Source of the DNA: Solimonas soli DSM 21787
GTDB taxonomy: Bacteria > Pseudomonadota > Gammaproteobacteria > Nevskiales > Nevskiaceae
Reading direction: 5' to 3'
Assembly: GCF_000474945.1 (NCBI RefSeq)
Contig: NZ_AXDW01000007.1
Span: forward strand, 248,001 to 312,000
DNA: 64,000 nt
Numbering within the stretch: position 1 is the stretch's first letter; every line of letters starts with the position of its first letter. The notes beneath the pieces are model-generated. The model made no database searches, was not told the origin of the DNA, and saw nothing but the letters and a program-made list of their open reading frames with translations. The translations under genes and the position numbers were made by a program. Positions 29,636 to 29,811 of the stretch are shown here, in pieces.

Positions 29636-29646
29636 GTCACACCATG

Positions 29647-29811
29647 AGATTGACGAGCTTGCCGGGGTGAGCCGGAACAGATGCGAATGCCTTGAATGGC
29701 ATTCGCACCCGGCGAACGGGCGGCCATGGACGGCCGCCCTGGGGTTCGATCAGGAGACACGGTCGCGCCACGGATGGCCTCCTAGATCACAAGGTTGACG
29801 AGCTTGCCGGG
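29647..29811. repeat. Palindromic element inserted at the leuS 3' end, flanked by 20-bp direct repeats
   Basis: Two copies of a 20-mer (AG[A/G]TTGACGAGCTTGCCGGG at 29647-29666 and 29792-29811, one mismatch) bracket about 125 bp. Inside are two perfect hairpins: GCGAATGCC-N6-GGCATTCGC at 29683-29706 and GGGCGGCC-N6-GGCCGCCC at 29718-29739. The outer copy still encodes the old LeuS end (PGKLVNLMV-TGA) directly before lptE. This looks like a small non-autonomous REP/MITE-like insertion. The element family is not identified. Confidence 0.7.

Follow-up and report, generated by a model that had tools for sequence, protein, structure and literature searches.

The leuS-lptE junction

The window, by which we mean the whole stretch of 64,000 nucleotides of Solimonas soli DSM 21787 that was analyzed, contains leuS and lptE on the minus strand, with a palindromic element and a second copy of the leuS end lying between them. 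For all loci discussed below, the working gene end found past the right end of an element is termed F, and the left-over copy, or relic, at its left end is termed R. The features at this junction, given in window positions, are as follows.

29090-29635, minus strand: lptE (Pfam LptE), with its ATG at 29633-29635
29637-29663, minus strand: R, the leuS 3'-end relic reading GKLVNLMV-TGA, which abuts the left end of the element and lies 1 base from lptE
29637-29702, minus strand: open frame of 22 codons including the stop, beginning at an ATG within hairpin 1 and crossing R (MPFKAFASVPAHPGKLVNLMV, then stop)
29664-29778, plus strand: palindromic element of 115 bp (covariance model R1, 122 bits)
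29671-29675 and 29709-29713: outer helix around hairpin 1, GCCGG / CCGGC
29682-29707: hairpin 1, TGCGAATGCC / GGCATTCGCA, with perfect arms of 10 bp at 29682-29691 and 29698-29707
29718-29739: hairpin 2, GGGCGGCC / GGCCGCCC, with perfect arms of 8 bp at 29718-29725 and 29732-29739
29767-29778: hairpin 3, GCCA / TGGC, at the right end, the weakest helix (90.7% paired)
29779-29781: gap of 3 bp from the element's right end to the leuS stop codon
29782-29811, minus strand: F, the working leuS 3' end, which adjoins the right end of the element
29782-32478, minus strand: leuS (Pfam), with its stop codon at 29782-29784

At this locus, the element begins with GGGGTGAGCC and ends with GGATGGC, and its first three bases, GGG, are also found in the gene at the same place. 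The two copies of the leuS end form direct repeats of 20 bp with one mismatch and a spacing of 145 bp (29647-29666 and 29792-29811), the outer of which, read on the minus strand, gives PGKLVNLMV-TGA, with the TGA at 29637-29639, one base before the lptE ATG. These repeats had been described in an initial annotation, which took the outer copy to be the native place of the leuS end and noted two perfect hairpins between the copies. Our analysis agrees on all of these points, coordinates included.

The frame of 22 codons that runs through R is a possible candidate for translational coupling to lptE. One sigma-70-like promoter match, where 0.1 would be expected from shuffles, lies over the relic end and the lptE start (29640-29613, minus strand) and should be considered as a consensus match only. 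A terminator scan of 29500-29950 found none, and an Rfam search of 29400-30000 gave four matches, all under the gathering threshold (the best with 17.2 bits, as compared to 50). Beside leuS, at 32577-33702, two neighboring open frames with pilin-like signal sequences were seen by eye.

A dispersed family of palindromic elements

When the segment was compared by BLAST to its own genome (G000), five further long copies (110-129 bp) and several partial ones were found. A covariance model built from six copies detected 28 copies in this genome at E <= 1.3e-4. At E <= 1e-4, the model matched nine of the 11 genomes of the genus, own genome included, with 39 copies in G010, 27 in G008 and 19 in G001, whereas G003 and G009 gave none. 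At the DNA level, the segment also matches other genera of the family (G016, G017, G019, G021 and G023; E < 1e-5). The insert in the window is one member of a family of non-coding palindromic elements of about 116 bp, dispersed through the bacterial family.

The initial annotation had proposed that a mobile palindromic element split leuS from lptE, leaving the current LeuS C terminus on the element side, and had named a single-copy element and a 145-bp spacer common to all close relatives as signs of an old spacer instead. The element is not single-copy, and it is absent from 45 of the 50 listed leuS-lptE junctions and from that of Solimonas terrae, the nearest named genome by LeuS (88%). The proposal of an insertion was thus borne out.

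The 186-nt strand at the locus folds better than its shuffles (z -3.0). Across 71 distinct aligned copies, 96.2% of the stem cells are paired and the covariation score is 0.416, as compared to 0.088 in shuffles and at most 0.060 in slid controls, although it should be noted that the alignment was fitted to the covariance model and therefore favors structure. By our own count from the pairing table, G-U pairs occupy 22 of 1889 stem cells. This near absence of G-U in strongly varying stems suggests that the hairpins are maintained as DNA rather than as RNA.

When all copies are oriented with GTGAGCC at the left and GGAYGGC at the right, GTGAG is found near the left end in 69 of 139 copies and GGAYGG(C/T) at the right end in 112 of 139. 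In the genome of S. soli, the left end of the element often gives the preceding gene its stop codon, as in the genes that we take, from their sequence, to be sucC, yqeY, sufB and serC. One copy lies in-frame inside purT (L077:1501-1619, corresponding to G000:C8:50062-50180), where the frame stays open and about 36 residues are added at a loop of the ATP-grasp domain, as judged from alignment to 1KJ8.

Several more complex arrangements were also observed. At L075/L078 (G000:C7:216043-216359), two tandem elements that precede ddl are separated by an exact 87-bp repeat of its start, and their right halves are near-identical while their left hairpins differ, as if the left hairpin had been swapped. 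Longer copies of 158-166 bp, with a second hairpin type nested in hairpin 2, are found at L076, L079, L085, L089, L090 and L094, and a head-to-tail array of four elements with a spacing of about 125 bp is found at L140 (G010:C28:215449-215929). The left flanks of L111, L155 and L174 contain a repeated block of 65-74 bp ending in GGAATCGCTC, which recurs after the three elements and is perhaps a partner repeat.

Gene ends duplicated around the element

Duplicated 3' ends were found for leuS, typA, leuC, nadE, lysS and phhB, and duplicated 5' ends for mtnC, mutL, ddl and mnmG. NCBIfam confirms mtnC, leuC, typA, ddl, mutL, mnmG, nadE, lysS, phhB and an MBL-fold gene. In the pairs used, the polarity is constant, such that R touches the left end of the element without a gap while F lies past the right end, with its first or last codon 1-70 nt off. 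A relic abutting the element with a score of at least 14 was found in 31 of 139 copies, as compared to three of 1440 mismatched flank pairs for which abutting was likewise required, and the duplicated ends are therefore beyond chance. These 31 relics comprise 23 framed gene ends, three gene ends outside the framed set (L102 twice and L157:1129) and five without a gene-end assignment (L140, L174, L155, L111 and L164).

The statistics below refer to 24 R/F pairs with gene-based frames. L102:1355 (for which the anchor was not found), L102:1501, the outer mtnC relic of G010 (L157:1129) and phhB (L087, spotted by eye, where the model match ran into F) are outside this set. The pairs are not independent and should be considered accordingly, as leuS, mtnC and ddl each contribute three and five genes are represented twice. 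The duplication measures about 20-90 bp, depending on the gene, and the same nucleotide of the same gene is used as junction in different species. NGG is found in the gene at the junction in 22 of the 24 pairs (12 of 13 genes), and gene and element share three or four bases there in 15 of the 24.

The NGG at the junction, together with the hairpins, would fit an element of the REP type, moved by a RAYT/IS200-like single-strand transposase with NGG as target, with the duplications being by-products. Y1_Tnp (RAYT) matches at E <= 0.001 were indeed found in six of the 11 genomes of the genus, among them G001, G008, G007, G006 and G003, with G001 and G008 being element-bearing. At the same cut-off, however, the search yielded no match in G000, nor in G010 with its 39 copies, and neither a GTAG nor a CGTC tag is fixed in the copies. 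Moreover, duplications of 20-90 bp would not be expected from insertion of the IS200 type. We thus hold this route to be quite improbable. As a separate observation, G001 and G008 each contain several Y1_Tnp genes of the RAYT/IS200 type, one with an internal stop.

The 24 pairs show 99 differences between R and F, distributed as 15, 8 and 76 over codon positions 1, 2 and 3; for leuC, the pairs extend beyond the stop of the relic, which adds first- and second-position differences. As free decay would affect all three positions, most relics are not old decaying copies, and those that are not decayed are young or of separate origin. This bears on the claim of the initial annotation that the insertion had duplicated its target. 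After a plain target duplication, the copies start out identical and the one without a use then decays at every codon position; the codon-aware differences observed argue that this is not the whole mechanism.

leuS in relatives, leuC and typA

An element with a relic is found in five of the 50 listed leuS-lptE junctions (G000, G004, G006, G012 and G051), and the junction nucleotide is common to G000, G004, G012 and G051. A few other junctions have other spacers. At the same junction in G008 (L043) and in S. terrae (L255), a different hairpin repeat (AGGAGCGGCG...CGCCGCTCCT) was observed; the leuS-lptE site hosts more than one kind of repeat.

The recurrence of junctions also addresses whether the arrangement could be an assembly artefact, due to collapsed strain variants or repeat misjoins. 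The genome of S. soli is in 34 contigs, which would allow for such errors, but the same junctions are present in separately assembled genomes, two of them in about 10 contigs (G012 for leuS and G018 for mtnC), and we give an artefact next to no credence.

In G012 and G051, which belong to genus g3, R and the spacer match the element-free congeners and F is the odd copy. As compared to the leuS ends of G052, G047 and G053, R has one third-position change, while F has five to seven changes, including one residue change. In G006, F keeps the NIVV of the sister genome G007, and a foreign origin of this F is thus not supported. For the leuS of the window itself, nine codons are too few to place F, which may stem from another species or be the product of local duplication and later silent change.

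Our reading of leuC covers 28 of 30 loci (two were off motif), with a leuC match in 52 genomes. Among the 28 genomes read, the working LeuC tail is RTLS-stop in G006, G007 and G001, all of which bear the element, and in none of the 25 others. The relic tails are different: in G007, the relic reads RSF-stop, which is the LeuC tail of the relative G000, and in G001 it reads RAL-stop, which is that of G008. Over 19 codons, R presents no amino-acid differences to the nearest element-free relative, whereas F presents three (G007 as compared to G000, and G001 as compared to G008). The difference counts for the leuC relic of G006 were not used, as this relic is one codon short.

Third-position identities from the upstream part of leuC to F fall between element-bearing and element-free genomes, from 0.80 to 0.50 for G007-G000 and from 0.79 to 0.50 for G001-G008, and rise from 0.76 to 0.83 for G007-G001. 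These values should be read with caution, as the leuC end has only 18 codons and the identities are noisy: they fall in element-free pairs, too (G000-G008, 0.80 to 0.61; G017-G005, 0.72 to 0.39), and do not rise for G006-G001 (0.76 to 0.72). That F tracks the element therefore rests on the shared tail more than on the identities. With this in mind, leuC is the clearest case and, as far as the sequences can tell, indicates that F follows the element and R the species. The leuC elements of G007 and G001 are identical at 109 of 118 positions, such that a transfer would not be very recent. Alternatively, F could be shared owing to a single old insertion that G000 and G008 have since lost. Such an old insertion would require that the relic changed only silently over all that time, and it is only the intactness of R that opposes it.

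At typA (L071 in G000), R has the tail AERAD, as in G007, although the sister genome of G007, G006, ends in SGRDD. F has the tail ADRAD, which G005 and G062 carry natively. From these tails, typA points weakly toward a lineage-own R and an odd F.

mtnC: local duplication and decay

For mtnC, 50 starts were listed and 44 counted, with G045, G046, G055, G057, G058 and G063 left out. Of the 44 genomes, 23 were flagged and eight of these were set aside by eye, as the match was mtnB coding sequence, leaving 15 genomes in five genera with an element and a relic, all 15 sharing one junction nucleotide. G002, G003 and G047 have possible element remnants without a clear relic, and double units are found in G010 and G018.

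Over the 27 nt compared, with one relic taken per genome (two exist in G010 and G018), the mtnC R on average resembles its own F (0.867) more than the F of other species (0.790), and none of 20,000 permutations was as good. R and F are identical over these 27 nt in G004, G049 and G001, which requires local duplication or homogenization. The relics of G006, G007 and G008 are decayed, and for mtnC as a whole the differences by codon position are 12, 9 and 33 (33 of 54 in third position). These patterns suggest that local duplication, homogenization and decay dominate at mtnC.

Other mtnC sequences give a mixed picture. In G019, R retains the genus-typical start, which overlaps mtnB, while the working gene is nearest to G000 over its first 50 bp and nearest to its own genus in most windows after that. 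This signal at the start of the gene stands out in G019, but is weak in G018 and unclear in G068. R is not, as a rule, nearer than F to element-free congeners; the distances are mixed and, in G019, about equal over 27 nt.

The mtnC data speak for the view that local duplication is the only process involved, in that replication slippage or template switching produced a long target duplication (about 20-90 bp) and the copies then diverged with no transfer between species. Beyond the proximity of each mtnC R to its own F and the decayed relics, identical or near-identical R/F pairs are found at mtnC in G004, G049, G001 and G005, at mutL in G010, at the MBL-fold gene in G001 and G008 and at ddl in G000, and L078, L134, L102 and L123 adjoin a second element. 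Such identical pairs, those of mtnC in G004 and G049 included, uphold the target duplication claimed in the initial annotation as an event that occurs. As the whole mechanism, however, it conflicts with the 76 third-position differences among 99, with the leuC F tail that is common across species while R is lineage-specific, and with leuS of genus g3, where it is F and not R that departs from the element-free relatives. We therefore consider local duplication alone to be unlikely, although less so than the other alternatives.

Selection might also be what preserves the relic. R could, for instance, serve as a short translated leader for translational coupling to the gene that follows, which in the window is lptE, and would then retain its reading frame even though the gene no longer ends there. 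The 22-codon frame running from hairpin 1 through R to the TGA before lptE would agree with such a role, as would the mtnC relic, whose frame is closed by a TGA of the element in nine of 15 genomes. Yet, this TGA is missing in the other six, several relics are decayed, and the typA relic of G000 is followed, as seen by eye, by a terminator-like hairpin with no coupled gene. Selection on the frame would, moreover, leave unexplained why the residues of the leuC relics match the nearest relative exactly. A selected leader thus appears improbable as the general reason for the relics.

A proposed spread of the element with a spare gene end

The explanation that we favor, with a probability of about 0.53, is that the element arises beside a duplicated gene end, and that element and F then spread together by recombination anchored in the gene, with the native end of the recipient being left as a relic. 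A repeated hairpin lying between a working and a left-over gene end suggests that the element spreads with a spare end and so enters genes without breaking them. In the initial step, insertion at an NGG near a gene end would duplicate that end, and the gene would survive the original insertion owing to this duplication. Element and F would then pass to other strains or species by homologous recombination, which would be possible as F and R are both homologous to the gene end of the recipient. A crossover on the F side would put the donor F onto the recipient gene, and a crossover on the other side would leave the native end of the recipient as R. Finally, slippage or unequal exchange between the direct repeats may give double units, refresh R from F within a lineage or remove the element cleanly. 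The element itself, at about 116 bp, is too short for an enzyme.

Transfer is supported by the multicopy nature of the element, its fixed polarity, the NGG at the junction, the codon-aware divergence, the shared junctions and the leuC F tail. The mtnC R being nearest to its own F, the noisy leuC identities, the weak typA signal and the G006 leuS F that resembles its sister count against it.

The usual view of short palindromic repeats is that they persist mostly in intergenic DNA, while here they are found at the ends of the core genes leuS, typA, mutL, ddl and leuC, which the element leaves unbroken due to the spare gene end beside each copy. If the element and the spare end are indeed carried together, small non-coding DNA would have a concrete route of spread through recombination. 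Each relic would then document a past transfer, and in several core genes of the family the opening or closing codons may differ in history from the gene body. More broadly, and with somewhat less than even confidence, we propose a class of mobile bacterial palindromes that encode no protein and enter core genes with a carried replacement end serving as homology arm. The gene would be kept whole, the site would be set by the carried end and NGG, species and genera would be crossed, the host end would be left as a fossil and the hairpins would be kept as DNA.

Comparison with known systems

Among the literature matches listed, which were open-access papers only, none set a precedent in bacteria for gene ends being carried by palindromic repeats, and this should be considered as weak evidence of novelty.

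REP elements (PMC8266576, PMC3733652) are small multicopy palindromes of 20-50 nt with a GTAG tag and a TnpA_REP enzyme. The element described here is alike in being a small palindrome in many copies but differs in its length of about 116 bp, in having no fixed tag and in that no such enzyme was found in G000. GTAG is found near the left end in three and near the right end in seven of 139 copies and is thus not an end tag.

Rickettsia palindromic elements (PMC10969869, PMC3733652) are about 150 bp long, end with CGTC and lie inside genes. The copy inside purT, a clear case of an in-frame and open insertion, may be a likeness to them. Here, however, CGTC is found near the right end in 45 of 139 copies, within GCCRTCC, and is not fixed, and the hallmark is instead the duplicated gene end.

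As for MITEs, terminal inverted repeats are not apparent, with the first ten bases and the reverse complement of the last ten matching at 2.3 of 10 positions on average over 139 copies, and the target duplication is not short and of fixed length but spans about 20-90 bp, depending on the gene. Integrative elements in gene 3' ends restore the gene end and displace the original, using one site-specific recombinase and one target. End restoration and displacement would be the same here, but many unrelated genes are involved and the element has 116 bp.

The GC clusters of yeast mitochondria (GC42; PMC4478555) are short, palindromic and dispersed, undergo mergers and are exchanged between species by homologous recombination in their flanks. 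Our element is also palindromic and dispersed, and exchange may be inferred at leuC. The clusters differ in having short AG/ACT flanks and in residing in an organelle, while here the flanks are duplicated gene ends in a bacterium. The double-hairpin elements of Allomyces, which are likewise short, palindromic and dispersed, are grouped with the yeast GC clusters.

The closest likeness is to gene hybrids in fungal mitochondria, formed via mobile endonuclease ORFs in Allomyces atp6 and in Glomus atp6, atp9, cox2 and nad3, where (PMC3630166) the insert supplies a foreign C terminus and displaces the native one, whose protein sequence is kept, the differences are largely silent and the foreign origin is inferred from the native copy matching sister species. 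The architecture appears to be the same, in that a carried end replaces and displaces the native one, and the pattern is seen at leuC and at leuS of genus g3, albeit over few codons and with mtnC speaking for local copies. The fungal inserts encode a homing endonuclease and concern 3' ends in mitochondria, whereas here an element of about 116 bp without an endonuclease ORF is found at both 5' and 3' ends of many chromosomal genes. For each of the other families compared, at least one defining feature was lacking or uncertain. The element appears to work like the fungal gene hybrids without the endonuclease.
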